From contig DATLGH010000062.1 of the NCBI GenBank assembly GCA_035540635.1, forward strand, positions 1-35,991: a stretch of DNA of 35,991 nt, given 5' to 3'. The stretch's first letter is position 1; each line of letters begins with the position of its first letter. A model generated the notes under the pieces. That model was not told the DNA's origin. It worked only from the letters and a program-made list of their open reading frames with translations, and made no database searches. Below, in pieces: positions 6,557 through 33,880 of this stretch. Position numbers and translations under genes: made by a program. This stretch comes from Egibacteraceae bacterium. Lineage in GTDB: Bacteria; Actinomycetota; Nitriliruptoria; Euzebyales; Egibacteraceae.

Positions 6557-8548
6557 GTGACTGAGACGAAGACCTTCGCCGACTTCGGCGTGGCCGAGGA
6601 CATCCAGGCCGCCCTCGCCGACATCGACATCACGAGCCCCTTCCCGATCCAGGAGCTCACGCTGCCTCTCGGCCTGGCCGGCGCCGACGTGATCGGGCAG
6701 GCCCGGACCGGCACGGGCAAGACGCTCGCGTTCGGCATCCCGCTCCTGCACCGCGTCACCGACGACCCCCGCACGCAGGCGCTCGTCGTCGTGCCGACAC
6801 GCGAGCTCTGCATGCAGGTGCGCGACGACCTCCAGCGTGCCAGCGCACGGCGAGGCACCCGGGTCATCCCCGTGTACGGCGGCAAGGCCATCGACGCCCA
6901 GGCCGACGCCATCCGCACGGGCTCCCCCATCGTGGTCGGCACGCCGGGGCGCCTGCTCGACCTGCTGCGGCGGGGCATCCTCGACCTGTCGACGGTGAGG
7001 ATGCTCGTCCTCGACGAGGCCGACGAGATGCTCGACCTCGGTTTCCTGCCCGACGTGGAGGTCCTCATCGAGGCCTGCGGCGAGGACCGCCAGACGCTGC
7101 TGTTCAGCGCGACGATGCCGTCCGCCGTCGTGGCGCTCGCCCGCCGGTACATGCGCAAGCCGACGTTCCTGCGCGCCGAGGTCGAGGAGGCGCGCATCGC
7201 TCCGGAGACCGAGCAGCACTTCTTCTCGTGCCACCGGATGGACAAGCCGGCGGTCCTCGCCCGCATCCTCCAGACGCCCGGGCGCGGGCTGTGCGTGGTC
7301 TTCACCCGCACGAAGCGCATGGCCGACGTTCTCGCCTCCGAGCTGCGGGAGCGGGGGATCGTCGCGGCGCCGATCCACTCCGACCTGCGTCAGGAGGCCC
7401 GGGAGCGGGCGCTCGCGAAATTCCGCAGGGGCACCATCGACGTGCTCGTCGCGACGGAGGTCGCCGCGCGCGGGCTCGACATCTCCGACGTCACCCACGT
7501 GGTGAACTACGACTGTCCCGACGACGAGAAGATGTACCTCCACCGGATCGGGCGCACGGGGCGTGCCGGCGGCCGCGGGGTCGCGGTGACCCTGGCCGTG
7601 TGGAACGAGCTCGCGCGCCTGGAGATGATCAAGAAGGCGCTCGCCATCGACGCCCCGACCCACGAGGTCTTCTCCACGTCGCCGATCCTCGACGAGCTGT
7701 TCGACCTCCCGGAACGCGCGCCGCGCAAGCCGGCCCCGCAGCCACCGGCGACGGCACGCCGCAGCCCGCGCCGGGGCCGTGGCGACGCCGGAGGGCGGGG
7801 GGACCGCGGCCCGCGCGAGGCGGCCCGCGACCCCGACGCCAGGGAGCGGCCCGCCACCCCGGAGCAGCCCGCCGCCAGGGAGGCCGGCTCCCCCGCTGCG
7901 CGCCGTGTGCGCGCCCGGCGGCGCAGCAAGGCGGCGGAGGGGGATCCCGGCAGGCCCGCAGCCGCCGAGGAGGCGCTCGCAGCCCCGGAGGCAACGGCGG
8001 CACCCGAGGCGCCACCGGCCGCGGCGGCCCCCGCAGCGGCGGAGGGGCGAAGTGTGGGCACGCGCCGGCGCGTCCGCACGCGGACGGGCGGTCGTGCGGC
8101 GACCGACGGCGAGCCGGAGGCGGCCGGGGAGGCCGCCCCCGAGCCGGCGTCCCCGACGAGCGAGCCGGAGGCGGCGGAGGGGTCACCGAGGACCCGCAGG
8201 AGTCGCGCCGCCGAGCGGGCGCCCCGCCGGTCACGGGGGACCCCGCGGGATGCGCAGGGAGGAGCCGACGACGCCCGCCGGGACGAGCGCGCCTCCGGGG
8301 ACGCGCGCGGACGCCGGGACGATCGCGCCTCCGGGGACGCGCGCGGACGCCGGGACGAGCGCGCCTCCAGGGACGCGCGCGGACGCCGGGACGAGCGCGC
8401 CTCCGGGGACGGACGCGGCCGCCGGGCCCGGCCCCGCAAGCCGCGCCCGGAACCGCGCGTCGACCTCGACCGCGCCACCGTCGAGCGCGCCCGCGGCTCG
8501 GGCAAGCCCGCGCTGAACCGCCCCATGGCGGTGACCCACCTGCCCTGA
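6557..8548 (+). CDS. DEAD-box ATP-dependent RNA helicase with long low-complexity tail
   Basis: 663 residues from a GTG. The helicase core fills about the first 370 residues with all motifs: FPIQ (Q motif), ARTGTGKT (I), PTRELCMQV (Ia), TPGRLLDL (Ib), LVLDEADEMLDLGF (II), FSATMP (III), VVFTRTKR (IV), ATEVAARGLDIS (V) and HRIGRTGRAG (VI). It would unwind RNA in ribosome assembly, decay or cold adaptation. The last ~290 residues are Ala/Glu/Pro/Arg-rich, without a recognisable RNA-binding fold, and include four 12-residue repeats of the DERASGDARGRR type. The tail ends KPALNRPMAVTHLP. Arg-rich tails on such helicases usually add nonspecific RNA binding and can promote condensate formation. The start is supported by core alignment rather than by a strong ribosome site. 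Confidence 0.93.
   Translation: MTETKTFADFGVAEDIQAALADIDITSPFPIQELTLPLGLAGADVIGQARTGTGKTLAFGIPLLHRVTDDPRTQALVVVPTRELCMQVRDDLQRASARRGTRVIPVYGGKAIDAQADAIRTGSPIVVGTPGRLLDLLRRGILDLSTVRMLVLDEADEMLDLGFLPDVEVLIEACGEDRQTLLFSATMPSAVVALARRYMRKPTFLRAEVEEARIAPETEQHFFSCHRMDKPAVLARILQTPGRGLCVVFTRTKRMADVLASELRERGIVAAPIHSDLRQEARERALAKFRRGTIDVLVATEVAARGLDISDVTHVVNYDCPDDEKMYLHRIGRTGRAGGRGVAVTLAVWNELARLEMIKKALAIDAPTHEVFSTSPILDELFDLPERAPRKPAPQPPATARRSPRRGRGDAGGRGDRGPREAARDPDARERPATPEQPAAREAGSPAARRVRARRRSKAAEGDPGRPAAAEEALAAPEATAAPEAPPAAAAPAAAEGRSVGTRRRVRTRTGGRAATDGEPEAAGEAAPEPASPTSEPEAAEGSPRTRRSRAAERAPRRSRGTPRDAQGGADDARRDERASGDARGRRDDRASGDARGRRDERASRDARGRRDERASGDGRGRRARPRKPRPEPRVDLDRATVERARGSGKPALNRPMAVTHLP
8282..8425 (+). 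repeat. Four tandem 36-bp units in the helicase tail
   Basis: Four in-frame 36-base copies begin at 8282, 8318, 8354 and 8390. They encode DERASGDARGRR, DDRASGDARGRR, DERASRDARGRR and DERASGDGRGRR. The near-identity at DNA level indicates recent expansion, and copy number may vary between strains. Confidence 0.9.
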
Positions 8549-8625: not shown

Positions 8626-9411
8626 TCAGGGGTTTCCGCTGACGGCGGCGCGCAGCGGGTCGGCGAGCGCCGGTCCGGCGGCGAGGACCCCGGGGTTGCC
8701 GTCGGGCGCGAGCAACGGCCCCACGACCGCCCCGGCCTCGGCGGCGAGCAGCGCGCCCGCCGCCCAGTCCCAGCGTGAGGGGGTGTCCTCGTAATAGCCG
8801 TCGACACGGCCCGCGGCGAGGGCGCAGAGGTCGAGGGCGGCCGAGCCGGCGCGGCGGATATCGCGCACGCGCGGCAGGAGGCCCGCCACGATCGCGGCCT
8901 GGCGACATCGGTGCTCCGCGTCGTAGCCGAATCCCGTCGCGACGAGCGCCCGCTCGAGCGGCACGGGATCGTTCACCGACAGCGGGCGCCCGTTCAGGCG
9001 GGCGCCGCCGCCCCGGACCGCGCAGAAGGTCTCGCCCCGCAGGGGATCATGCACGACGCCGACAACTGCTGACCAGGCGCCGCCGACGCGGTCCTCGCAC
9101 GCGACGCTCACGCACCACGCGGGGAACCGGTAGAGGTAGTTGACCGTCCCGTCGAGCGGGTCGAGGACCCACCGCAGGCCCGACCTCGCGGGCCGGTCCG
9201 CCCCCTCCTCGCCGAGGATCCCGTCGTCGGGCCGCTCGGCCACGATCGTGGAGACGAGCAGCTTCTCGGACGCCCGGTCGGCGTCGCTCACCGGATCGGT
9301 GACGCTCGACTTCGTCCCCACGCCGGTGGCGGCGCCGTAGCGCTCGAGCAGCTCCTCCCCGGCGCGTCGGGCCGCCCGCTCGGCGAGGTGGAGCAGGCCG
9401 TCTGCGGACAC
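8626..9411 (-). CDS. Inositol monophosphatase family protein
   Basis: 261 residues from a GTG at 9411, nine bases after an AAGGAG site; an in-frame GTG at 9417 is an alternative. These Mg-dependent, lithium-sensitive phosphatases hydrolyse inositol-1-phosphate, histidinol phosphate, fructose-1,6-bisphosphate or PAP. The two family signatures are present: WVLDPLDGTVNYLYRFP (metal-binding motif) preceded by the GEEGA glutamate, and near the C-terminus SRWDWAAGALLAAEAGA. TDPVSDADRASE matches the conserved Lys/Thr-Asp N-terminal segment. Length is normal. The substrate cannot be told from sequence; in actinobacteria, inositol-1-phosphatase and histidinol-phosphatase are the main candidates. It is divergent from flgN and probably unrelated to motility. 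Confidence 0.9.
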   Translation of the reverse strand: MSADGLLHLAERAARRAGEELLERYGAATGVGTKSSVTDPVSDADRASEKLLVSTIVAERPDDGILGEEGADRPARSGLRWVLDPLDGTVNYLYRFPAWCVSVACEDRVGGAWSAVVGVVHDPLRGETFCAVRGGGARLNGRPLSVNDPVPLERALVATGFGYDAEHRCRQAAIVAGLLPRVRDIRRAGSAALDLCALAAGRVDGYYEDTPSRWDWAAGALLAAEAGAVVGPLLAPDGNPGVLAAGPALADPLRAAVSGNP

Positions 9412-9497
9412 GGGCACGCGCTCCTTCTGGCTGGCGGATGGCCCGTACAGGCTACCGTCGCCTCCTGCCCGCCGGAATGCGGTGGGCCGCTCAGGCG

Positions 9498-9524
9498 TTA
9501 ACTCCTTCCCGGTACGGCCGACGG
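9498..9524 (+). promoter_or_regulatory. Candidate sigma-28 (FliA) promoter of flgN-flgK-flgL
   Basis: TTAA (9498-9501), 15 bases, then GCCGACGG (9517-9524). The sigma-28/sigma-D consensus is TAAA-N15-GCCGATAA/T. The same spacing and near-identical boxes precede flbD. The flgN ATG lies 7 bases after the -10, so the transcript would be leaderless or nearly so, and indeed no Shine-Dalgarno precedes flgN. Confidence 0.62.
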
Positions 9525-9531
9525 GACCGCC

Positions 9532-10044
9532 ATGACCGTGCGTGACCACACCCCCGGCCTCGACCGGCTGGCGGAGACGCTGGGCGCTGAGCGGCGCGTG
9601 GTGGAGTACCTGCTCTACAAGCTCGTCGCCGCGAAGCTGCTGCTCGCCGCGGACGAGCACCGTTTCGTGCCGCCCGCGCTCGAGGAGGTGGAGCGCGTGC
9701 TCGCCGCGCTGCGGGAGGCCGAGGCGCAGCGCGTGGACGCGCTGGCGGCGACCGCCCGCGAGTGGGCTGTCGCGGTGGGCGACCTGTCCCTGGCCGAGCT
9801 CGTGCGTCACGCACCCGAGCCGGTGGCGAGCGTGCTCCGCGCGCATGAGCACGCATTCCGCAACCTCGCGGAGGAGATCGAGAAGACCGCCGCCGACAAC
9901 CGGCGGCTGGCGACGAGCGCCCTCACCCACGTGCAGCGGGCGCTCGACGCGCTCACCGGCCCGACGGTCGGCGCGACGTACACCGCGTCGGGCCACCACC
10001 ACGCCGCGCTCCCGCGTCCCACCCGCCTGGACTCGGTGCTCTAG
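9532..10044 (+). CDS. flgN: FlgN-like flagellar export chaperone
   Basis: 170 residues, largely alpha-helical with heptad-like Leu/Ala spacing (for example LEEVERVLAALREAEAQRVDAL) and a disordered Thr/His-rich tail. FlgN chaperones bind the C-termini of the hook-filament junction proteins FlgK and FlgL and deliver them to the export apparatus. FlgN sequences diverge greatly, so the call rests on size, helical character and position directly before flgK, with a one-base stop/start overlap at 10044. It is probably made from a leaderless FliA-dependent message. It could alternatively be an unrelated helical protein, but the context is strong. Confidence 0.75.
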   Translation: MTVRDHTPGLDRLAETLGAERRVVEYLLYKLVAAKLLLAADEHRFVPPALEEVERVLAALREAEAQRVDALAATAREWAVAVGDLSLAELVRHAPEPVASVLRAHEHAFRNLAEEIEKTAADNRRLATSALTHVQRALDALTGPTVGATYTASGHHHAALPRPTRLDSVL

Positions 10045-11429
10045 TGGGCTTCATGGGCCTGCACACCGCCCTGAGCGGCATCCGGGCCGCGCAGACGGGG
10101 CTCGACACCGCGTCCCACAACGTCGCGAACGCGAACACCCCCGGCTACACCCGCCAACGCGTCGACCTCACCACCCGCAACCCCTACTACTCTCCCGTGG
10201 GGCTGATCGGCACCGGCGTCGACGTCGCGGCGATCGCCCGGGCCCGTGACGCCTTCCTCGACGCCCGGGCCCGCACGCTCGGCGCGGAGTTCTCCTGGCA
10301 TGACGCCACCGCGCAGCTGCTCCGGCGCACCGAGGCGGCGCTCGGCGAACCCGACCAGGGCCTCCCCCGCCAGCTCGGCGCGGTGTGGGACGCCTTCGAG
10401 GACCTCGCGCTCGACCCCGCTGACTCGGCGGCGCGCCGCCAGGTCCTGTCCGCGCTCGACGGCTTCGCCGCACGGGTGCGTGGGGTGGCGGTCGGCTGGG
10501 ATCAGCTCGCCGCCGACACCGGTGCCCGTCTCGCCGACGCGGTGCGGGAGGCCGATGGCCTGCTCTCCCGCGTCGCCGAGCTCAACCGCCAGATCGCCGA
10601 CGTGAGCCTGCGCCAGCCCCCACCGGGCGACCTGCTCGATCAGCGCGACCTCGCGGTGGACCGCGTTGCCGCGCTGCTCGGCGCGACGATCGGGACAGGA
10701 CCCGACGGGATGGTGACGATGTCGCTGCCCACCGGCGACGGCGGGGGCGTCACGCTCGTCACGGGGACGAGCGCGCGCACGCTCACCGTCGAGGGCGGGA
10801 CCGTGCGGACGGTCGTGGACGGTGCCGCCCTCACGGTCGCCCCCCGGGGGGAGACGGGGGCCCTGCACGCCTTCCTCACCGAGACGCTTCCCGGCAGGGT
10901 CGCGGCTCTCGACGCGTTCGTGAGTGATCTCGCCGCCGCCCTGAACGCCCAGCACGCCGCCGGCCGCGACGCCGAGGGCGCCCCCGGGGGCGCCCTGTTC
11001 ACCTTCGACCCGTCCGCAGGCGCCGCGCGCAGCATGCGGGTGTCAGCGGACGTGCTCGGCGACCCGCGGCGGCTCGCAGCGGGCGGTCCCGACGCCACGG
11101 GGCCCCACGATGCCCGCAACGCCGACGCGCTCGCCGCGCTGCGCGCCGCGAAGGTGGACGGCAAGCCGCCGTTCGACGGTCAGCTCGCCGCGTTCGTCGT
11201 CGAGCTCGGTGCGCGCGTGGCGACCGCGAGGAGCACCGCCGACGCGCAGGCGAGCCTCTCCGTGGCGGCCACGGTCGCCCGGCAGGGGGCTCACGGCGTG
11301 AGCCTCGACGAGGAGATGGTCGCGCTCGTCGCCTACCAGCGAGCGCTGGAGGCGGCGAGCCGGGTCATGACCGCCGTCGACCAGGCCCTCGACGTGCTCG
11401 TCAACCGCACCGGGATCGTCGGACGCTGA
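10044..11429 (+). CDS. flgK: Flagellar hook-associated protein 1 (FlgK)
   Basis: 461 residues. FlgK forms the first layer of the hook-filament junction and leaves the cell through the flagellar type III system. The N-terminal D0 signature is clear (MGLHTALSGIRAAQTGLDTA, then HNVANANTPGYTRQRV), and the C-terminus has the matching D0 helix (SLDEEMVALVAYQRALEAASRVMTAVDQAL). The middle contains the LNRQIADV and LLDQRDLAVDRVA segments typical of the family. The start is a GTG overlapping the last base of the flgN stop; the ATG at 10053 is an alternative that removes three residues. Length is within the FlgK range. Confidence 0.95.
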   Translation: MGFMGLHTALSGIRAAQTGLDTASHNVANANTPGYTRQRVDLTTRNPYYSPVGLIGTGVDVAAIARARDAFLDARARTLGAEFSWHDATAQLLRRTEAALGEPDQGLPRQLGAVWDAFEDLALDPADSAARRQVLSALDGFAARVRGVAVGWDQLAADTGARLADAVREADGLLSRVAELNRQIADVSLRQPPPGDLLDQRDLAVDRVAALLGATIGTGPDGMVTMSLPTGDGGGVTLVTGTSARTLTVEGGTVRTVVDGAALTVAPRGETGALHAFLTETLPGRVAALDAFVSDLAAALNAQHAAGRDAEGAPGGALFTFDPSAGAARSMRVSADVLGDPRRLAAGGPDATGPHDARNADALAALRAAKVDGKPPFDGQLAAFVVELGARVATARSTADAQASLSVAATVARQGAHGVSLDEEMVALVAYQRALEAASRVMTAVDQALDVLVNRTGIVGR

Positions 11430-11475
11430 CCGTCCGGTGGCCCGAGCGGAGCCACACGAGGACGAAGGAGGAGCG

Positions 11476-12366
11476 ATGCGGGTCACGAGCGAGATGATGG
11501 TCGCCAACTCCCTGCGGCGCCTGTCCACACGCCTCGAGCGCTACGAGCGTGCGCAGTCGCAGCTCGCCGCGGGCAGCCGCCTGCTCGCGGCGTCCGACGA
11601 CCCGTCGGGAACAGGGCAGGCGCTGGGCCTGAGGGCGAGCCAGCGAGCGCGGGAGCAGGAGGTGCGCAACGCCTCCGACGCCCGCAGCTGGCTCGGCCTG
11701 GCCGACAGCCAGCTGCAGGCCGCGGTCGAGGGCCTCCAGCGGGCGCGTGGGCTCGCGGTGCGGGGCTCGAGCTCCCTCAACGCCGACGAGCGCCGGGCGA
11801 TCGCGGCGGAGCTCGCGAGCGTGCGCGACGAGATGGTGACGATCGCGAACTTCGCGCATCGTGGGCGGCCGCTGTTCGCGGGGTACGGGGAGGGGCCCGC
11901 CGTCGCGCAGGTCGACGGGGTGTGGACCTTCCGGGGTGACGAGGGTGCGATCACCCGGCGGGTCGGCGAGTCCGACGTCGTGCAGGTCAACGTGACCGCC
12001 GCGGCGGCGTTCGGCTTCGGCAGCGCCGGGGGGGACGTCTTCACGATGCTCGACGAGCTCGTCGCGGCGCTCGACGCCCCGGACGCGGCCGCGGCGCTCA
12101 ACGCGGGGATAGGCCGCATCGACGGAGCCCGGCGGCACGTCGGTGACGCGCTCGCGCGGGTCGGCGCGAACACGAACCGGGTCGAGTCGGCGCGCCGGCG
12201 GTCCGAGGACGCCCTTGCCGCGACCCGCGGTCAGCTCGCCGAGGTGGAGGACGTCGACATCGCAGCCGCGATCATGGATCTGCAGACCCAGGAGCTCGCG
12301 TACACGGCGACGCTGCAGGCTCTCGCCCGTGCGCTCCCTCCCTCCCTCGTGAGCTTCCTGCGCTAG
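11476..12366 (+). CDS. flgL: Flagellar hook-associated protein 3 (FlgL)
   Basis: 296 residues, starting at ATG 11476 behind a strong GAAGGAGGAG site; an upstream in-frame GTG at 11437 has none. FlgL forms the second junction layer, onto which flagellin assembles. It has flagellin-like terminal domains: N-terminal MRVTSEMMVANSLRRLSTRL with QLAAGSRLLAASDDPSGTG, and C-terminal VEDVDIAAAIMDLQTQELAY. The central domain is short, as expected for FlgL. It follows flgK after 46 bases and precedes fliW, an order shared with Bacillus and other Gram-positive bacteria. Confidence 0.93.
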   Translation: MRVTSEMMVANSLRRLSTRLERYERAQSQLAAGSRLLAASDDPSGTGQALGLRASQRAREQEVRNASDARSWLGLADSQLQAAVEGLQRARGLAVRGSSSLNADERRAIAAELASVRDEMVTIANFAHRGRPLFAGYGEGPAVAQVDGVWTFRGDEGAITRRVGESDVVQVNVTAAAAFGFGSAGGDVFTMLDELVAALDAPDAAAALNAGIGRIDGARRHVGDALARVGANTNRVESARRRSEDALAATRGQLAEVEDVDIAAAIMDLQTQELAYTATLQALARALPPSLVSFLR

Positions 12367-12373
12367 CGCGCGG

Positions 12374-12420
12374 GTAGCGGGGCGGTAGCACACCACGCGC
12401 TCGAGTAGCGAAGCGGTAGC
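12374..12420 (+). repeat. Pair of 16-bp direct repeats upstream of fliW
   Basis: GTAGCGGGGCGGTAGC (12374-12389) and GTAGCGAAGCGGTAGC (12405-12420) differ at two central positions and start 31 bases apart, close to three helical turns. Each unit itself contains GTAGC twice in the same direction. A TANNNT-type TAGGCT follows at 12430-12435, about 24 bases before the fliW ATG, so the repeats lie where an activator or repressor would bind. Confidence 0.5.
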
Positions 12421-12459
12421 GCCCCCTACTAGGCTTGCCGCTCCCGGAGGTCACACCCC

Positions 12460-12861
12460 ATGAACGAGCCCGCGTCCATCCTCGAGTTCCCCGACGGCAT
12501 CCCCGGCTTCCCGTCGTCGCGGCGCTTCGTCCTGAGCGACCTGACCGAAGACGCCGAGGGGCCGTTCCAGGTGCTGCAGAGCCTCGACGACCCGACGCTG
12601 TCCATGGTGGTGAGCGTGCCATGGCCGTTCTTCCCCGACTACAGCCCCCGTCTCGACGAGACGGACCGCGCGGTCCTCGAGCTCGACGACCCCGAGGACG
12701 CCGTCGTGTTCTGCGGGGTGACCGCGGATCCCGACAACGGGACGGTCTTCCTCAACCTGCTCGGGCCTTTCGTCGTGAATGCGCGGACCCTCCGGGGCCG
12801 GCAGGTGGTGCTCACCGACCCGCAGCAGCCGGCGCGTGCGCCGGTTCTGCTGCGCGGGTAG
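12460..12861 (+). CDS. fliW: Flagellar assembly factor FliW
   Basis: 133 residues. FliW binds CsrA and releases flagellin mRNA from CsrA repression; free flagellin in turn titrates FliW, giving a partner-switch that matches flagellin synthesis to export. Family features are the LEFPDGIPGFPSSRRFVLSDL opening, QVLQSLDDPTLSMVV in the middle and VFLNLLGPFVVNARTLRGRQVVL near the end. The ATG has a GGAGG site nine bases upstream. csrA starts 3 bases after its stop, the usual arrangement. Flagellin itself (fliC/hag) is not in this window. Confidence 0.95.
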   Translation: MNEPASILEFPDGIPGFPSSRRFVLSDLTEDAEGPFQVLQSLDDPTLSMVVSVPWPFFPDYSPRLDETDRAVLELDDPEDAVVFCGVTADPDNGTVFLNLLGPFVVNARTLRGRQVVLTDPQQPARAPVLLRG

Positions 12862-12864
12862 CCG

Positions 12865-13161
12865 ATGCTCGTCCTGACGCGGCGCGCCGGTGAGTCGGTC
12901 GTCATCGGCAACGACATCGTCGTCACGGTGCTCGAGGTGCGGGGTGACCAGGTGCGCATCGGCATCGACGCGCCCCGCAGCGTGACCGTGCACCGCGAGG
13001 AGGTGTTCCGCACGATCGAGCGCGAGAACACCGCCGCGGTTGCCGCCGCCGAGCAGACCAGGGCGCTGCTGCGCGGCGCCGACCTGCCACGCCGCGTCCG
13101 GCGGCCCGATCCCGGCGTGCGGCGCGATCCCCTCAGCGGAAAGCGACCTCCACCTCGGTGA
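12865..13161 (+). CDS. csrA: Carbon storage / translational regulator CsrA with extended C-terminus
   Basis: 98 residues. CsrA is a dimeric RNA-binding protein that blocks ribosome sites containing GGA loops; in FliW-bearing bacteria its main target is flagellin mRNA. The first ~60 residues are canonical: MLVLTRRAGESVVIGNDIVV, then EVRGDQVRIGIDAPRSVTVH and REEVF with the conserved RNA-contacting arginine. Most family members end at 60-75 residues; here an extra basic, proline-rich stretch (ADLPRRVRRPDPGVRRDP and on) follows. The 3' end overlaps the convergent DUF4230 gene by 29 bases. A frameshift or lost stop could explain the extension, but the frame is open and plausible. Confidence 0.93.
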   Translation: MLVLTRRAGESVVIGNDIVVTVLEVRGDQVRIGIDAPRSVTVHREEVFRTIERENTAAVAAAEQTRALLRGADLPRRVRRPDPGVRRDPLSGKRPPPR

Positions 13162-13837
13162 AGCCCAGGGAGCCGAGCAGGCTCTCGAGCATGGCCCGGG
13201 TGTTGCGCTCGGCGGCGGCGATGAGGTCGGTCTCGCCCGCAGCCGCGCCCAGCCGTTCCTGCGCGAGCAGGTAGAGCTCCCGCTGGCTGCCCCCCTCGTC
13301 GGAGAGGAGCCCGCCGATCCGGTCGAGCAGGCCACGCCGGTGCTCGTAGACGTAGCTCTCCTCGAGGTCGATGCGCGGCGCGGACAGGCGGGGCGCGGGC
13401 AGGACGATGCGCGCGCTCGACCGGTCGTCGGACACGCGGACCGCGCCCCCGGAAAGCCCGGAGAAGTCGACCGTGGCGTCGACCGTGCCGGCGGCGACGA
13501 ACAGCGTCCGCTCCCCCGCCAACGCCGGCGGCAGGTACCGGGCGTGCTCCTCGACGTCGAGGAGCACCTGGAAGTGGCCGGTGGCGGCGCGGTACTCGCT
13601 GAGATCCTCGAGCGCCTGGAGGACCGCGGGCCCGGTGCGCTCCACCCGGTCGGTCGCGAAGGGGTTGGGGACGGTGGGGACGAGCCGCCCGAGCACGACG
13701 AGACCGGCGAGGCCGAGGACGACGACCACCGCGACGCCGGCGACGAACGCCCACACCCCGCCACGTCCCCGACGACCCGCCGAGGTGGCCCATCGCGGGG
13801 CGCCGCGGTCGGTGTCGTCGTCGACCCCTGCGCTCAC
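13133..13837 (-). CDS. DUF4230 domain-containing membrane-anchored protein
   Basis: 234 residues from a GTG with an AAAGGAGG site 7 bases upstream; longer in-frame starts are not needed. A basic N-terminus precedes one transmembrane segment (WAFVAGVAVVVVLGLAGLVV), and the rest is predicted outside the membrane. The body matches DUF4230: a VLQALEDLSEYRAATGHFQVL start, an acidic linker, a hydrophobic strand set, and a helical C-terminus with RNTRAMLESLLGSLGFTEVEV. The family is widespread in actinobacteria and firmicutes without a known function. It is convergent with csrA, overlapping it by 29 bases, and divergent from the small acidic gene at 14066. No link to motility is evident beyond position. 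Confidence 0.82.
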   Translation of the reverse strand: MSAGVDDDTDRGAPRWATSAGRRGRGGVWAFVAGVAVVVVLGLAGLVVLGRLVPTVPNPFATDRVERTGPAVLQALEDLSEYRAATGHFQVLLDVEEHARYLPPALAGERTLFVAAGTVDATVDFSGLSGGAVRVSDDRSSARIVLPAPRLSAPRIDLEESYVYEHRRGLLDRIGGLLSDEGGSQRELYLLAQERLGAAAGETDLIAAAERNTRAMLESLLGSLGFTEVEVAFR

Positions 13838-16516: not shown

Positions 16517-18016
16517 TCAGGCGGGTACGGCGGGTTGCGCCGGGTCGACCAGGGGCAGCGCGACGGCGACGAGGTCGGGGTCGAGGCTGGTGCCGGCGAG
16601 CGCGCTCAGCGCCGTTGCGATCGCCGGCGGGTCGGCGGGGCCCTCGGTGTGGGTCAGGCGCTCCACCGCGTCCGCGACGGCGATGATGCGCGCCGCCAGG
16701 GGGATGGCGTGACCGGACAGGCCGTCGGGGAAGCCGCCGCCGTCCCAGCGCTCGTGGTGGCCGCGGACCGCGGCGGCGACCTCGTCGCCGGCCGACGGGC
16801 GTAGGTAGTCCGCGCCGCGCGCGGGGTGGCTGCGGTACGCCTCGGCAAGGGGGCCGTCGTGGTCGCCGGCGCCGGCTATCGCCTCGGGCGCGACGGCGAT
16901 CTTGCCGACGTCGTGGAGCAGTGCCGCGAGCTGGATGCGGGTGCGGCGCTGGCCGTCGTAGCCGAGGCGCCAGGCGAGCTCGCCGGCGAGCTCGGCGACC
17001 CGCTCGCCGTGGCCGGGCGGGTAGGCGTCGTGGCGCTCCACGTGCGCGAGCATGCGCAGCGCCGCCTCGAGCTCCGTCGTGGACGACACGCCGAGCGACA
17101 GGGTGTCGGCGGCGACGACGCCGCCGTCCTTGTCCGCCGCCGCCACCTCGAGCGCCCGATGGGCGAGCTCGCGCACGGTCGCGACCTGCGCTGCCGCTTC
17201 CGCGCCGGCGTGACCCATGGCGAGCGCGAGCGGGTGGTAGCCGTTCGGGGCGAAACGCCGCGCGACGCGTCCGAGACGCAGCCCGAGCTCCTCGGCGCTG
17301 TCGGGCGCGAGGTCCATGCCGAGCACCGCGTGGTCGGCGGGCCCGAGCGTGAACAGCTCGACGGCGAAGCGCTCGGCGAGCTGGCGGAACGCCACCGCGA
17401 GGCGGCGGCGGACGAGCAGGGTCGCGTCGGCCGCGGCCCGCTGCTCGGTCCCCGGCAGGTGGAGGAGGCGCAGGAACGCGATGCGGGGGACCTGCCCGGC
17501 CTGGCTCAGTTCGGTCAGGCGCTGCGCGAACGCCGCGCCGGTCGGCTCGCCGGTGAGCGGGTCGCGGTTGCGCAGCGCGTCCCTGCCCCCGCGGGCCTGC
17601 GCGAGCTTGCGCTCGTAGGTGGTGATGAGGCCGGTGTCGTGCCCGGTGCCGGCGGCGAGGGCCGCGACGGCGTCCTCGTTGCCTTCCCCGATGACGCCCG
17701 CCGCACCTGCCCGCATGACCTCGACCGCCAGCCCCTCGCCGCCGGTGTGCACGAGCACCACGACCTTGCCGCGGGCGCGGCCGCGCAACCCCGACAGGGC
17801 CGCCATGAGCTCACCGCGCGGCATCCGGGTGGACACGACGACGACGTCGGCGTCGTCGGGCCCGTCGACGAAGGTGTGGGCTCCGGTCTCCTCCAGCCTC
17901 GCGCGCACCGGCGCCGGGACCTCGACCAGCAGCGTGCGCACCGGTGCGCCGGTGCCGGCAGGCTCGGTGCCCGGTCGGCGCTCGCGGGCGTCCTCGCCGG
18001 CGCCGCCGTCAGGCAC
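16517..18016 (-). CDS. HD-GYP c-di-GMP phosphodiesterase with degenerate receiver and GGDEF-like regions
   Basis: 499 residues. The first ~125 look like a response-regulator receiver, but the phospho-acceptor position reads VVVVSTRMP where DLRMP or similar is expected, so it is probably not phosphorylated. A vestigial GGDEF-like domain follows (NRDPLTGEPTGAAFAQRL and on) without a GGDEF motif. The C-terminal ~180 residues are an HD-GYP domain with the metal ligands present: HGERVAELA, LLHDVGKIA, HPARGADYL, GHHERWDGGGFPDGLSG (GFP in place of GYP) and IIAVADAVERL. It should hydrolyse c-di-GMP to GMP or pGpG. The GTG start overlaps the fliA stop by 8 bases, so the two are translationally coupled. 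Confidence 0.88.
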   Translation of the reverse strand: MPDGGAGEDARERRPGTEPAGTGAPVRTLLVEVPAPVRARLEETGAHTFVDGPDDADVVVVSTRMPRGELMAALSGLRGRARGKVVVLVHTGGEGLAVEVMRAGAAGVIGEGNEDAVAALAAGTGHDTGLITTYERKLAQARGGRDALRNRDPLTGEPTGAAFAQRLTELSQAGQVPRIAFLRLLHLPGTEQRAAADATLLVRRRLAVAFRQLAERFAVELFTLGPADHAVLGMDLAPDSAEELGLRLGRVARRFAPNGYHPLALAMGHAGAEAAAQVATVRELAHRALEVAAADKDGGVVAADTLSLGVSSTTELEAALRMLAHVERHDAYPPGHGERVAELAGELAWRLGYDGQRRTRIQLAALLHDVGKIAVAPEAIAGAGDHDGPLAEAYRSHPARGADYLRPSAGDEVAAAVRGHHERWDGGGFPDGLSGHAIPLAARIIAVADAVERLTHTEGPADPPAIATALSALAGTSLDPDLVAVALPLVDPAQPAVPA

Positions 18017-18878
18017 TGACGCGCCACCCGCCGGGGGCGCCCGCCTCGAGCCGGCTGCGCCACGTCGTCTCTGCGCTCACACCGGCGACGTAGGCGGCGC
18101 GCTGGCGGCGGCCGGGCGCGCCGGTCGGCACGGGCGGAACCGCGTCGAACGCGCTGGCGAAGTACGCCCGCAGGGCGTGGAGGGCCTCGGCACGGATCTG
18201 GGAGACGCGCGCCTCGGTGACGCCCATGGAACCGGCGACCTCACGGAGCCGCTCCCCACGGAAGTAGGTGCGCTCCACGACCTCGCGCTGCACGGGCGGG
18301 AGGTGGGCGACGCCGGTGCGGACGGTGCCCGACAGCTCGAGCCGCTCGAGGGCCTCCTCGGGAAGGCGATCGTCGGAGGACTCGGCGATGCACTCACCGA
18401 GGGTGGCCTCGGCGCTGTCGTGCTGGCCGAGCGGCTGGTCGAGGTGGAGCAGCGTCGCCGTCGCCGCGGCGGCGTGGCGGTCGGCGAGCTCGCGCTCGGT
18501 GATGCCGAGCGCGGCCGCCAGCTCCGCCGGGCGCGGGAAGCGGCCGTGCTGCTCCTCGAACCGCCGGCTGGCCTCATTGACATCTCGCATGCCGCGACGC
18601 AGCGCCCGGGTGGCCCAGTCACGCGAACGTGCCGAGTCGACCATCGCCCCGCGGATGCGGATGACGGCGAAGCGGGCGAACGGCACGCCCGCGGACGGGT
18701 CGTAGCGGCGGGACGCCTCCACGAGGCCCGCGGCGCCGGCGCTCCAGAGCTCCGCCCGGTCGACGTGGCGGGGGTAGCGGGAGGCGAGCTGCCGCAGCAC
18801 CTGCTCGACGAGGTGCAGGTGCTGCTCGACGAGGGTGTTCGCCTCGTCCTCGGGAGCAGGTCGGATCGTCTCGGTCAC
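18009..18878 (-). CDS. fliA: RNA polymerase sigma factor for flagellar genes (FliA/SigD/WhiG type)
   Basis: 289 residues from a GTG behind an AAAAGGA site. Region 2 is clear (RAELWSAGAAGLVEASRRYD, VPFARFAVIRIRGAMVDSAR, RDWATRALRR), region 3 follows (RFPRPAELAAALGITERELA), and region 4 carries the -35-binding helix-turn-helix (REVVERTYFRGERLREVAGS with MGVTEARVSQIRAEALHALR). There is no region 1.1, as expected for sigma-28. A ~40-residue extension after region 4 (GRRQRAAYVAGVSAETTWRSRL) is unusual. Its position at the end of the flagellar locus equals sigD in Bacillus. Likely targets are the TTAA-N15-GCCGAC sites before flgN and flbD. No anti-sigma factor FlgM was recognised in the window. Confidence 0.93.
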   Translation of the reverse strand: MTETIRPAPEDEANTLVEQHLHLVEQVLRQLASRYPRHVDRAELWSAGAAGLVEASRRYDPSAGVPFARFAVIRIRGAMVDSARSRDWATRALRRGMRDVNEASRRFEEQHGRFPRPAELAAALGITERELADRHAAAATATLLHLDQPLGQHDSAEATLGECIAESSDDRLPEEALERLELSGTVRTGVAHLPPVQREVVERTYFRGERLREVAGSMGVTEARVSQIRAEALHALRAYFASAFDAVPPVPTGAPGRRQRAAYVAGVSAETTWRSRLEAGAPGGWRVSA

Positions 18879-19517: not shown

Positions 19518-20141
19518 CTAGAGCATCCTCCGGATGGCGTCGGGCGGAGCCGTCCGCACGGGGGCGTACTTCACCACGTCGCCGGTGCGCGGCGCGTGGA
19601 TCATCTGCCCGTCGCCGGCGTAGATGGCGATGTGGTTGGGCCTGCCGCCGTGGCCGTTCCAGTAGACGAGGTCGCCCGGCCGCGCCTCGGCGAGGGACGG
19701 CACGGCCACCCCGGCGCGCGACTGGTCGCGGCTGACCCGCCGCGTCGCGACCCCGAGGTCGGCGAAGACCCGCTGGACGAACCCCGAGCAGTCGAGGCCC
19801 GTGGAGGGGTCGGTGCCTGCCCAGCGGTAGGGGACGCCGAGGTAGCGGCTCGCGGCCGCGACGACCGCGCCGCGGTCACCGGCGGTCGGGGGCCGGGACT
19901 GCTCGGCGCTCGACGCGGGGGGAGGCGGCATGGCCGGAGCGGCCGGGGTTGCCATCCCGGGGGGCAGGGTGGCGACCATCTCCCCGAGGGTAACGGGACG
20001 GGCCGTGGAGGCCGGTGACGGCCGGGTGGCTTCGCCGAGCGCCGCGGCGAGCGCGGCAGCGAACGCGGCGCCCGTCGGCGTTGCTGTGCCGGTGGGCGCG
20101 ACGGGGGGCACGCCGGGGGAGACGGCATCGATGGTGGGCAT
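19518..20141 (-). CDS. NlpC/P60 peptidoglycan hydrolase of the flagellar operon, probable flagellar export substrate
   Basis: 207 residues from ATG 20141 (GAGGAG upstream). The C-terminal ~110 residues are an NlpC/P60 cysteine peptidase, which cuts D-Glu-diaminopimelate-type bonds in the peptide stem: YRWAGTDPSTGLDCSGFVQ with the catalytic Cys, then RPGDLVYWNGHG and HIAIYAGDGQMIHAPRTG with the His. There is no Sec or Tat signal peptide. Instead the N-terminus is Ala/Pro/Thr-rich and disordered, and its first residues MPTIDAVS match MPTIGGVS of FlgD in this locus. Both proteins also have A26-F27-x3-L31, the form of the hook-subunit gate recognition motif. Inference: it is exported by the flagellar secretion system and opens the wall for the rod, replacing the FlgJ muramidase role. 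Confidence 0.88.
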   Translation of the reverse strand: MPTIDAVSPGVPPVAPTGTATPTGAAFAAALAAALGEATRPSPASTARPVTLGEMVATLPPGMATPAAPAMPPPPASSAEQSRPPTAGDRGAVVAAASRYLGVPYRWAGTDPSTGLDCSGFVQRVFADLGVATRRVSRDQSRAGVAVPSLAEARPGDLVYWNGHGGRPNHIAIYAGDGQMIHAPRTGDVVKYAPVRTAPPDAIRRML

Positions 20142-20184
20142 GGCTCCTCGAGGTGGCGGCCGGCGCCGCCGGTGCGGGTTGCGG

Positions 20185-20451
20185 TCAGGTGACGCGATCG
20201 GCGGGGCGGGCCCGGCGGCGGTCGGCGGGGTCGGGGTCCGCGGCCGGTGTCCGGCGTTCGAAGCGGGCGGCAGTCGACGACAGCCACCACCCGGCCCCAC
20301 GCCCGATCGCGGTGACCCCGACGAGCGTGACACCCGCCCGCAGGGCCGCGTCGGCGAGGGTGAGCGCCCCGAGGGCGAGCATGGCGGCGGTGGGCGCGAG
20401 CGCCACCAGCCCGAGCGCCCCGGTGAGGCGGCGGAGGGGTCCTGGCTTCAC
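20185..20451 (-). CDS. Small two-helix membrane protein in the flhG position
   Basis: 88 residues. The GTG start (20451) overlaps the stop of the FlhF-like gene in a GTGA arrangement, indicating translational coupling. Two hydrophobic stretches (about LTGALGLVALAPTAAMLALG and AGVTLVGVTAIGRGAGWWL) suggest a hairpin in the membrane, followed by a charged Arg/Asp-rich tail. No family is recognised. In Bacillus-type operons flhG (MinD-like ATPase) follows flhF; nothing in this sequence resembles an ATPase. NlpC/P60 follows after 43 bases. Coupling to the preceding gene and biased codons make it likely to be real. Confidence 0.7.
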   Translation of the reverse strand: MKPGPLRRLTGALGLVALAPTAAMLALGALTLADAALRAGVTLVGVTAIGRGAGWWLSSTAARFERRTPAADPDPADRRRARPADRVT

Positions 20452-24816: not shown

Positions 24817-26622
24817 TCAAGGGGTCGGCTCCACCGACCCCGTGGCCGCCACCGGCTGACCACTGCCTGCCAGGGCCGCGCGCGCCGGCGGCGGCGGGGC
24901 CGGCTCGTCGGGCGCGTCGTCCTCGCGGCGCGCCGCGCGGCGAGCGGTGACCGCCATGAGCGCGATCCACAGCGCGACGAGCGTGGCCAGCCCCGTGTAC
25001 GCGAGCGCCGCCGGCCATCCCGGACCCTCGGTCGCCTCGCGCAGCAGCACCTCGGTGTTGCGGACGAACTCCACCTGGCGTTCGGGGACGGGCGGCACCG
25101 CCGACGCGCCGATCTCCGGGTCGGCTGGCAGGGCGATCGGTGCGGCCATCACCTCGGGACCCCGCTGCAGGGTCACCATCGACTTCCAGCTGCCGGTGAC
25201 GGGGACCGCCTCGGTGGACCGGTACACCCCCGGGCCGACCTCGACGAGCGGGATTTGCCGGCTGCCGCCGCCCTGCCAGGAGGTGAGGGCGAAGGCCGTC
25301 GCGCGGTGAGCGGCGTCGGGCGGGTCGAGCGCCACCTCGACGTCGGCGGTGTCCCCCGCGATGTCGAGGCGGATCACCGCCGAGACGTCGCCGACCTGGC
25401 GGGGCAGCGGGTAGGCGAGCACGCCGAGGAGTGCGACGCCGGCCACCGCGAGCGCCGCGACCGGAAGCGGCTCTGCGCGGGGTAGGAACGCCCGGGCGAG
25501 GCCGGCTCCGAGCACCGCCGCGGCCGTCGCGGCCACCGGCCCGAGCAGCGCCGCCTTGACCGCGAGCGCGGCGGGGATCTCGTGCCACCACCCCGTCCCG
25601 ACGACCCAGGCCGCCTCGGTGAGCAGGCCGGCGGTGCCGACGAGCACGCCCGAGGCGACCGCGAAGCGCAGGCGCCCGGCGGTGCCGAGCCGCCACGCCA
25701 CCGCCTCGACGAGGAGCGCGGAGCCGAGGTAGAGCGGGAAGCGGGGTACGGTGTGACCGAGCGCCCCGCCGACGGCGAGGGCGAGCAGACCGCGCAGCGT
25801 GAGCGCGACGAGCACGGTCTTGACGGCACCCCAGGGTCCGAGGGCCAGGCGCGTGAGCACGAGGCTGAAACCCGCGGCCGCCATCACGAGCAGCGGCAGG
25901 TAGAGGACCTGGAACTGGGGCACGCCGAAGTCGAACTCGCCCTGGAAGGTGGACGCCCCGACGAGGACGGTCCCGGCGGTCAGGACGAAGATGCCCCGGC
26001 CGAGCCGGTTCGGGCGGGCGGCCGGCAGACCCTCGGCGCACATGAGCAGCGCGGCGATCGTCGCCGCCGACCCGCCGCCGACGAGCTGCAGGTGCGTCGG
26101 ACTCCACAGGGTCACGTCGATGCCGTAGGCCCGGTGCCACAGCTCGTCGAGCGGGAAGGCCGCGACCGCGCCGGTCCCGAGCGCGCCGAGCAGGACCGCG
26201 GAGTAGGGGATGCGAAGCCCCCAGGCGGAGAAGCCGACGTCGGCGTCGTCCACGGTCGCGAAGAGGATCGCGACGACCGCCGCATAGACGAGCCCGCCGA
26301 GCCCCACGAGGATCATCGTGTGGGAGGGGGTGAACAGCACGACGTCGCGGCCGTTGTCGATGTGCCAGGCGACGTCCCAGTAGAAGCCGATGACGACGAT
26401 GAGCAGGGCCATGAGGGCCGACAGCACCCCGGCCATCGACCACCCGGGGAACCCGGTTGCGCGCCGCAGGCTGTCGGAGACCCGGCCGATGAAGAACAGC
26501 ACCGCGTCCCGCTCGTTGCTCCGGCCGACCAGCGCCAGCCCGACGGTGATGAGGACGTAGAGCGACACGGGGACGAACAGCCACATCCACGAGCCGAGCC
26601 CATGCGCCACGACGGGGTCCAT
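24817..26622 (-). CDS. Polytopic membrane protein with duplicated WH-x3-G-x-DV-x-L-x2-P-x-H motif and extracytoplasmic beta domain
   Basis: 601 residues from ATG 26622 (GAGAGGAG upstream). Roughly eleven or twelve hydrophobic segments are seen. Two stretches exactly 76 residues apart share the pattern WH-x3-G-x-DV-x-L-x2-P-x-H: residues 86-101 (WHIDNGRDVVLFTPSH) and 162-177 (WHRAYGIDVTLWSPTH), so the N-terminal half contains a duplication. The His/Asp residues could bind a metal or haem. Residues ~425-500 form a soluble section with a YtkA/FixH/CopC-like look (DVEVALDPPDAAHRATAF, VGPGVYRSTEAVPVTGSWKS), then a last membrane helix and a Pro/Ala tail. The gene is divergent from a cupredoxin lipoprotein, which favours a copper-related role. 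It interrupts the fliR-flhB junction and is not a flagellar family. Confidence 0.75.
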   Translation of the reverse strand: MDPVVAHGLGSWMWLFVPVSLYVLITVGLALVGRSNERDAVLFFIGRVSDSLRRATGFPGWSMAGVLSALMALLIVVIGFYWDVAWHIDNGRDVVLFTPSHTMILVGLGGLVYAAVVAILFATVDDADVGFSAWGLRIPYSAVLLGALGTGAVAAFPLDELWHRAYGIDVTLWSPTHLQLVGGGSAATIAALLMCAEGLPAARPNRLGRGIFVLTAGTVLVGASTFQGEFDFGVPQFQVLYLPLLVMAAAGFSLVLTRLALGPWGAVKTVLVALTLRGLLALAVGGALGHTVPRFPLYLGSALLVEAVAWRLGTAGRLRFAVASGVLVGTAGLLTEAAWVVGTGWWHEIPAALAVKAALLGPVAATAAAVLGAGLARAFLPRAEPLPVAALAVAGVALLGVLAYPLPRQVGDVSAVIRLDIAGDTADVEVALDPPDAAHRATAFALTSWQGGGSRQIPLVEVGPGVYRSTEAVPVTGSWKSMVTLQRGPEVMAAPIALPADPEIGASAVPPVPERQVEFVRNTEVLLREATEGPGWPAALAYTGLATLVALWIALMAVTARRAARREDDAPDEPAPPPPARAALAGSGQPVAATGSVEPTP

Positions 26623-26719
26623 CTGCCGCTCCTCTCGCACCTCGTCCCACCGCGGCGGGCCCCCGAGGCTCGCGCTGCGGAATCCTCTTTCGGGGCGGCA
26701 TCGTACTACCGGTAACACG

Positions 26720-26740
26720 CCGGCGGGAAATCCCTGCCGG
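26720..26740. repeat. Inverted repeat in the divergent promoter region of the copper-type gene pair
   Basis: CCGGCGGG and CCCTGCCGG pair with one bulged base across an AAAT loop. The repeat is about 100 bases from each divergent start (26622 and 26834), so it could bind a regulator shared by both genes. This 211-base region also holds TACCGGTA (26707-26714) but no clear promoter boxes. Confidence 0.4.
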
Positions 26741-26833
26741 TTGCGATGGTACGTGTGCGGTCGCTGTGGTTTCCTGGGCAGCGGGGCGCTTCGCGCCAGA
26801 CGCGTCAACGGCCGACGAACCCAGGGGATGACC

Positions 26834-27643
26834 GTGAGCCTTACCACCGTGAAGCTGCTCGTGCTCGCGCCGGCGCTCGCCCTCGCTCTGGCCGCGTGCA
26901 ACGGCGACGACGTGACCGGGCCGACCCAGGCGCCCGAGAACGACGACGTCGCTGCGGACGTCGAAGCCTTCTGCGACGACGCGCTCGGCCTCGGCTCGCC
27001 CGGGGAGCCGGAGGTCGACTGGGAGACGGCGACCGAGGAGGAGATCGCCGCGGCGCAGCAGGTGTTCGCCGAGGAGCGGCTGCGTCCCCTCGTCGAGGAT
27101 CTGCGGGACAGCGCGCCGCAGGACGTGCAGGACGATGTGGCGACCCTGGAGGAGGCGCTCGACGAGGCCGAGGGCAGCGGGGACCTCGAGGCATTCTTCG
27201 GGGGAGCCGGCGGGCAGGCCCGCAACGCCATCGCCATCGAGGCCGCCGACCGCTGCGGTTGGAGCTCCGTGGACGTGACGATGGTGGACTACGAGTTCCA
27301 GGGCGTGCCCGAGACCCTGCAGGCCGGTCCGGTCGTGTTCTCCGCCACCAACGAGGGTGAGGAGAGCCACGAGATGATCGTGTTCGTCAAGCGGGAGGGA
27401 GTCGAGGAGACCTGGGAGGAGATCCTCGGGCTCGAGGAGGCGGAGGTCATGGAGCGCGTGGAGTTCGTCGCGGCGACCTTCGCGCCCGCCGGCGAGGAGA
27501 GCACGGCAGCCGCCGACCTCGATCCCGGCGAGTACGTCATGGTGTGCTTCATCCCCCAGGGCACGGACGCGTCCGGCGAGGAGGCCGGCGACGGGCCGCC
27601 CCACTTCCAGGAGGGCATGTTCGCCGACTTCACCGTGGAGTAG
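26834..27643 (+). CDS. Lipoprotein with C-terminal cupredoxin (type 1 copper) domain
   Basis: 269 residues from GTG 26834, six bases after an AGGGG site; ATG 26828 is the alternative. A lipoprotein signal is clear (short lysine-containing n-region, LALALAAC lipobox), so it sits on the outer face of the membrane. An acidic helical region follows, including LGLEEAEVMERVEFVAATF-like segments. The C-terminal ~120 residues are cupredoxin-like (VDVTMVDYEFQGVPETLQAG, VVFSATNEGEESHEMIVF, GEYVMVCFIPQG, PPHFQEGMFADF). All four type 1 copper ligands are seen: His (codon 27368), Cys (27545), His (27602) and Met (27617), the last three as C-x18-H-x4-M, with H-x4-M spacing as in plastocyanin. It should carry electrons or hold copper; the partner is probably the divergent membrane protein. 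Confidence 0.83.
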   Translation: MSLTTVKLLVLAPALALALAACNGDDVTGPTQAPENDDVAADVEAFCDDALGLGSPGEPEVDWETATEEEIAAAQQVFAEERLRPLVEDLRDSAPQDVQDDVATLEEALDEAEGSGDLEAFFGGAGGQARNAIAIEAADRCGWSSVDVTMVDYEFQGVPETLQAGPVVFSATNEGEESHEMIVFVKREGVEETWEEILGLEEAEVMERVEFVAATFAPAGEESTAAADLDPGEYVMVCFIPQGTDASGEEAGDGPPHFQEGMFADFTVE

Positions 27644-27700
27644 CCGGCCCACCGTCAGCGGAGCCAACCGGTTCAGGCCCGTCCGGCCGCCGCAGCCGCG

Positions 27701-33564: not shown

Positions 33565-33810
33565 TCAGCGCTCCGGCTCCGGCACGACCGACAGCCCGGG
33601 GCGGCCGGCGTCGCGCAGGTCGTCGGCGGCCACGAGCACCGAGGCACGGAACGCCACGATGCGCCGCACAACCTCGTCGGGCGTCTCCTGCACGATGGCC
33701 TTGCGACCGTCCACGAGGGTGAGGAGGGTGTCCGGGGTGACCTCGATCGCTTCGATGAGGTCAGCGTTGACGAACAGCGGTTCGCCGTGCAGTCGATGCA
33801 GGAGGATCAC
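33565..33810 (-). CDS. flbD: Flagellar FlbD/SwrD family protein
   Basis: 81 residues from GTG 33810 with AAGGAGGT upstream. The sequence follows the FlbD family: ILLHRLHGEPLFVNADLIEAIEV, then PDTLLTLVDGRKAIVQE and PDEVVRRIVAFRA. In Bacillus the equivalent SwrD lies between flgE and fliL and raises flagellar torque. Here it is followed directly by motA, which suits a stator-linked role. It is the first gene after a terminator and a candidate sigma-28 promoter, so it probably heads a motility operon. Confidence 0.92.
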   Translation of the reverse strand: MILLHRLHGEPLFVNADLIEAIEVTPDTLLTLVDGRKAIVQETPDEVVRRIVAFRASVLVAADDLRDAGRPGLSVVPEPER

Positions 33811-33853
33811 CGCGCACCTCCTTGTGCGTCGCCGGATGATCGTGTCGACCCGC

Positions 33854-33880
33854 CTGTCGGCGGGCGCCGGCCACGCTTAA
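33854..33880 (-). promoter_or_regulatory. Candidate sigma-28 (FliA) promoter of flbD-motA-motB-fliL
   Basis: On the minus strand: TTAA (33880-33877), 15 bases, then GCCGACAG (33861-33854). It matches the flgN candidate at 11 of 12 box positions and fits TAAA-N15-GCCGATAA/T. The flbD GTG is 43 bases downstream of the -10, leaving room for a leader with its AAGGAGGT site. Confidence 0.62.

Follow-up and report, generated by a model that had tools for sequence, protein, structure and literature searches.

The Bacillus flgM-flgN-flgK-flgL-fliW-csrA operon, which has a SigD promoter, is one of the described systems closest to the locus studied here. Sigma-28 promoters (those of FliA, SigD and WhiG) follow the consensus TAAA-N15-GCCGATAA, and their starts have been measured in several bacteria, such that in E. 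coli the aer promoter, with -10 GCCGACAT and GCCGAC as an active -10 variant, begins transcription 6 bp after the octamer (PMC2859248), while in C. jejuni the sigma-28 -10 elements lie 6-8 nt before the transcription start site (PMC3847290). Leaderless mRNAs have also been described in actinobacteria, accounting for about 500 genes in M. tuberculosis (PMC3898074) and for 14% of CDS in Actinoplanes SE50/110 (PMC7682106). Leaderless mRNAs (common in actinobacteria) and sigma-28 promoters before flgN operons (normal) are thus known separately.

The window that we analyzed is an entire contig (C62; 35,991 nt) of a 3.46-Mb, 110-contig genome of an Egibacteraceae bacterium from the little-studied class Nitriliruptoria (Actinomycetota). 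At the level of sequence, it has a sigma-28-type element abutted to the start codon of flgN, which heads the operon for the flagellar hook-filament junction, and this placement is real and conserved.

The flgN promoter element and its predicted message

The full flgN element, 9498-TTAACTCCTTCCCGGTACGGCCGACGG-9524 on the plus strand, reads TTAA-N15-GCCGACGG and ends 7 nt before the flgN ATG, exactly as the preliminary description had it. Its -35 element TTAA (9498..9501) was recognized by sequence and is kept as a T(T/A)AA-type motif in relatives, its -10 octamer GCCGACGG (9517..9524) was recognized by sequence, by weight matrix and by conservation of the first six bases in relatives, and the gap GACCGCC (9525..9531) leads directly to the ATG at 9532. 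All of this falls within a 120-bp intergenic region that has a divergent inositol-monophosphatase gene (8626-9411) upstream. Because measured sigma-28 starts fall 6-8 nt after the -10, transcription is predicted to begin at 9530-9532.

The first gene behind the element is flgN itself (9532..10044, plus strand; Pfam FlgN PF05130, E 8e-15), for which 9532 is the earliest possible start codon of the frame. It is followed on the same strand by flgK (10044..11429; Pfam FlgK_D1), whose GTG start overlaps the flgN stop by one base and which is probably translationally coupled to flgN through this overlap, then by flgL (11476..12366; Pfam Flagellin_N/C), fliW (12460..12861; Pfam FliW) and csrA (12865..13161; Pfam CsrA), the last recognized gene of the run. 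The flgN AUG has no Shine-Dalgarno (SD) sequence, which also agrees with what had been proposed, in that its anti-SD duplex energy of -4.0 kcal/mol is what random 17-mers with the same composition average (-4.1 +/- 3.0). Energies for the SD-led genes compared within the regulon (flbD, flgB, fliC, flgL and fliW) ranged from -10.7 to -15.1, with flgL, which has its own strong SD, at -11.7. Four flgN orthologues gave weaker energies than flgN here (-1.7 to -3.0), and the exception was the flgN of a Nitriliruptoraceae MAG contig (L141; -6.4), where a GGAG lies too near the ATG for a usual SD. No Rfam RNA element was found near flgN.

We consider it very likely that a working sigma-28 promoter starts RNA at or near the flgN ATG and that flgN is translated leaderless, these two parts forming one joint explanation, and the flgN message is thus most probably a leaderless one of sigma-28 type. 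With a FliA/WhiG-family sigma, RNA polymerase would read TTAA as the -35 and GCCGAC as an extended -10, the DNA would melt just downstream of the -10, and RNA would start 6-8 nt after the octamer, which would set its 5' end no more than 2 bases from the first letter of the flgN ATG (9532). A flgN-flgK-flgL message started at the ATG would open with its own start codon and probably run on into fliW-csrA. Ribosomes would then bind the 5'-terminal AUG to translate flgN, would reach flgK via the stop-start overlap, and would translate flgL and fliW from their own SDs.

Regulon members and candidate sigma factors

At least five flagellar transcription units in this genome carry the element, two of them with it abutted to the ATG and three with a leader. 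The preliminary description had placed the same element with the same spacing before flbD, and this held for the spacing between -35 and -10 (TTAA-N15-GCCGACAG, 33854..33880, minus strand; an exact match with the same N15) but not for the distance to the start codon, which is 43 nt. The flbD leader (33811..33853, minus strand) contains the SD AAGGAGGTG and an ACAAGGA (CsrA-like) motif, which rules out a leaderless flbD; the gene itself (33565..33810, minus strand; Pfam FlbD) has a GTG start and heads a motA-motB-fliL-fliM... gene run. Leaders were also found for the flgB operon (122 nt after the promoter, SD AGGAGGTGGAG) and for the flagellin gene fliC (59 nt with an SD, after TTCA-N15-ACCGACAG). 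The second abutted case is fliS (contig C37 (L013):7892-8287, minus strand; Pfam and NCBIfam FliS), which is preceded at 8295-8321 on the same strand by TAAA-N15-GCCGACAG, followed by N7 and the ATG, with the third TWAA site in the genome at 8297-8321, and which looks likewise leaderless from the same element with a 7-nt gap. Elsewhere, fliS is near-leaderless in G002 (10 nt), while in most of the other relatives that could be read it has an SD or is coupled to fliD, and the idea that chaperone genes are leaderless as a class was dropped, as fliS appears so here only. Behind the fourth TWAA site (contig C81) no gene is evident. Leader presence can thus differ systematically among members of one regulon.

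Profile searches revealed two FliA/WhiG-family sigmas in the genome. One candidate reader is a divergent FliA/WhiG-type sigma encoded in the flagellar gene run (18009..18878, minus strand) that scored 169 bits against TIGR02479, short of the cut-off of 189.6, and that is kept at 49-64% identity in order relatives. The other is a WhiG-type protein on contig C109, which alone scored above the curated cut-offs, with 270 bits for FliA_WhiG and 378 bits for WhiG. Five residues (R74, D81, R84, R91 and R94) do not vary across the sigma alignment, and these match -10-contacting residues of E. coli FliA.

It is possible, and we give this appreciable though limited weight, that the C109 WhiG-type sigma, and not the divergent FliA-like one, is the main reader of the promoter, or that both read it, as the curated cut-offs single out the C109 protein and as WhiG has a promoter specificity in common with flagellar sigmas (PMC8325347). 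The location of the divergent sigma within the flagellar gene run argues against this, as do its presence in the majority of genomes whose promoters take the TTAA/GCCGAC form, the tendency of genomes that do not have it (G010, G005 and family f2) towards TCAA/TAAA/CTCA with GCCGAT or GCCGAG, an association between sigma and promoter form that was judged by eye across few lineages, and the occurrence of WhiG homologues also in relatives without detected flagellar genes. This alternative concerns the identity of the sigma only and is compatible with the leaderless sigma-28 explanation.

Several further features were observed in these gene runs and genomes. The divergent sigma also occurs in G006 (93% complete), where no FlgK, FlbD, flagellin or FliS was detected, and its gene is adjoined here by an HD-domain (HD_5) gene (16517-18016, minus strand). 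An NlpC/P60 peptidoglycan hydrolase gene lies inside the flagellar gene run (19518-20333, minus strand), and fliR and flhB, normally adjacent, are separated by about 2.8 kb (24863-27700) with long ORFs on both strands, none of those tested having a Pfam match. AT-rich flagellin genes with strong SDs (L103, L116; G011:C232) were seen in a high-GC genome, and this is probably a contaminating contig in that MAG.

Conservation among relatives and placement in the genome

Among Nitriliruptoria outside family f2, the -10 element stands 6-8 nt ahead of the flgN ATG in 18 of 19 readable genomes (7 nt in 12, 8 nt in 5 and 6 nt in 1), which together with the known sigma-28 starts supports the earlier suggestion of a FliA-type promoter giving a leaderless message. 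The gap is exactly 7 nt in the order relatives G018, G027, G002 and G011 (the last read by eye and confirmed in contig L131) and also in L141, and these five follow the pattern T[TA][AG][AT]-N15-GCCGA[CG]NN-N7-ATG. Identity over six flgN promoters was 94% in the -10 core (first six bases) and 75% in the -35, and it dropped to 36% over the spacer and to 38% over the gap, where 30% is expected by chance; because the motif is kept while spacer and gap are near chance, we infer selection on motif and distance, not mere relatedness. Family f5, the second family of the class, extends the observation, with GCCGA(C/T) or ACCGAC 6-8 nt before the ATG in 13/13 readable flgN genes (11 by pattern, and G057 and G046 by eye; L141 and G049 are probably one contig) and with a degenerate -35 (TTGA, TAGA, TACA). 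Among orthologous promoters TTAA and TAAA interchange at the -35, and GCCGAC prevails as the -10 in relatives. Elsewhere in actinobacteria, a 7-nt gap at flgN was also seen in the Dive96 MAG (L137). The leaderless arrangement is not essential to flgN, because G010 has no element before flgN, which is coupled there to an upstream gene, family f2 has a CTCA-type element and a leader with SD, and clear cases in other actinobacteria have the sigma-28 element 57-83 nt from flgN.

These comparisons also bear on where translation starts. Given that a GTG lies two codons past the ATG and that sequence does not prove start codons, the sigma-28-type promoter could be real and flgN translated from a later in-frame start (the GTG at codon 3, 9538, or codons 23-24) behind a short or ordinary leader. 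We find this very unlikely, since no SD precedes these later starts either, it is the ATG and not the GTG that stays 6-8 nt from the -10 across 18 genomes, and FlgN proteins are similar over the stretch upstream of their conserved core.

Evaluating the element across the genome, we found exact TTAA-N15-GCCGAC twice in 3.46 Mb, before flgN and before flbD, with both matches within 70 nt of the heads of flagellar operons and none for the reversed-pattern control. As about 2.3 exact matches per genome are expected from composition alone, the count is unremarkable and only the placement is significant. The chance that a random match falls in any of five 60-nt zones on the same strand ahead of flagellar operons is about 4e-5, a figure that is indicative because the flbD element, 43-70 nt before its start, lies at the edge of such a zone. 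Within the whole 36-kb window, TTAA itself occurs only twice, each time as the -35 of the flgN or flbD element, and allowing up to one mismatch gave 4 matches versus 0.52 expected, a number that 0/100 shuffles reached; genome-wide, one mismatch gave 49 sites versus 30 in the control. Plain counts of TWAA-N15-GCCGAC in 30 genomes were not above the reversed-pattern control, and the signal therefore lies in placement and not in number. A weight matrix trained only on the flbD and fliC (flagellin) promoters of relatives, with flgN promoters kept out of training, was scanned over 103 kb of the genome, including the two contigs on which flagellar genes were found, and ranked flbD (18.7), flgN (17.5), fliS (17.3) and flgB (15.8) as its top four and fliC sixth (12.4), with 15.0 as the best score among 15 Markov controls. 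The predicted enrichment near flagellar genes was thus seen, both exact matches and the top four matrix sites preceding flagellar operons. That the element is a chance match, and that flgN has a normal leader and a different promoter further upstream, is hardly credible: an exact match is not rare in itself at about two per genome from composition, but the placement before flagellar operons, the independent matrix ranking and the class-wide conservation oppose it, and a search for a sigma-70 promoter gave no sigma-70-like site in 9300-13400.

CsrA-type leaders and comparison with known systems

The leadered members of the regulon share a further motif, such that in the order (families f1 and f3) 13/15 leaders of flbD and fliC have ACANGGA over the SD, against 2/72 SD-bearing control starts, one of them fliC itself. 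This motif resembles the known CsrA consensus. It was not seen in family f2 and is absent from the flbD and fliC leaders of G010, and since G010 nevertheless has csrA, covariation between ACANGGA and CsrA is unproven. We tentatively raise, as a rather unlikely reading, that a single sigma-28 regulon uses leaders as a class-wide device, setting a leaderless junction/FliW/CsrA operon against leadered flbD (motor/export) and flagellin units with ACANGGA as a CsrA-type site. If true, leaderless flgN would be exempt from CsrA and the junction proteins would be set apart from filament and motor synthesis, although such an escape of flgN from CsrA is speculation. The covariation across phyla expected between leaderless flgN and csrA failed to appear. 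Family f2, with no csrA detected and a leadered flgN, fits a rule linking leaderless flgN to the presence of csrA in its operon, but we rejected it as a general rule because Blastococcus, Kineosporiaceae and UBA7422 have csrA with leadered flgN and because Dive96 is leaderless with no csrA found.

Compared with described sigma-28 promoters, the flgN element likewise has an extended -10 starting with GCCGA, a -35 at a spacing (N15) within the 15-16 nt of this class, enrichment at flagellar genes, a position before a flagellar operon and a cognate sigma family encoded in the genome. It differs from the consensus in its -35 TTAA (three of four bases, the second being T where the consensus has A), in C as the sixth -10 base, in GG where the last two -10 bases are AA, and in having the -10 abutted to the start codon. 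As in actinobacterial leaderless mRNAs, flgN has no SD, an AUG start with a predicted 5' end at it and a conserved -10 about 7 nt upstream, but its -10 fits an alternative sigma of the flagellar type, where the main leaderless -10 of M. tuberculosis is TANNNT. Given how widespread leaderless messages are among actinobacteria, this pairing is not as unusual as the preliminary description suggested.

The Bacillus operon has the same flgN-flgK-flgL-fliW-csrA order and a sigma-28-type promoter, but in B. inaquosorum (L208) its position is more distant, about 1.4 kb upstream of flgK and in front of a further gene, it is followed by a 48-nt leader with an SD, and flgN is not leaderless as it is here. 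Motilibacter, Kineosporiaceae, Blastococcus and UBA7422 likewise carry CTCA/TCAA-N15-17-GCCGA(T/C) directly before flgN, with 57-83 nt from -10 to flgN start and not the 7 nt seen here. We found neither a leaderless sigma-28 flgN message nor a sigma-28 start abutted to an AUG class-wide in the open-access papers searched. The promoter definition T[TA]AA-N15-GCCGAC is usable for annotating flagellar operons in high-GC Nitriliruptoria, where start codons called by SD may be misplaced. As both ingredients are known and their abutted, class-wide form was not found in those papers, the flgN arrangement represents a conserved variant and not a new kind of system, and it offers a conserved, testable case of a message that an alternative sigma factor most probably makes without a leader.
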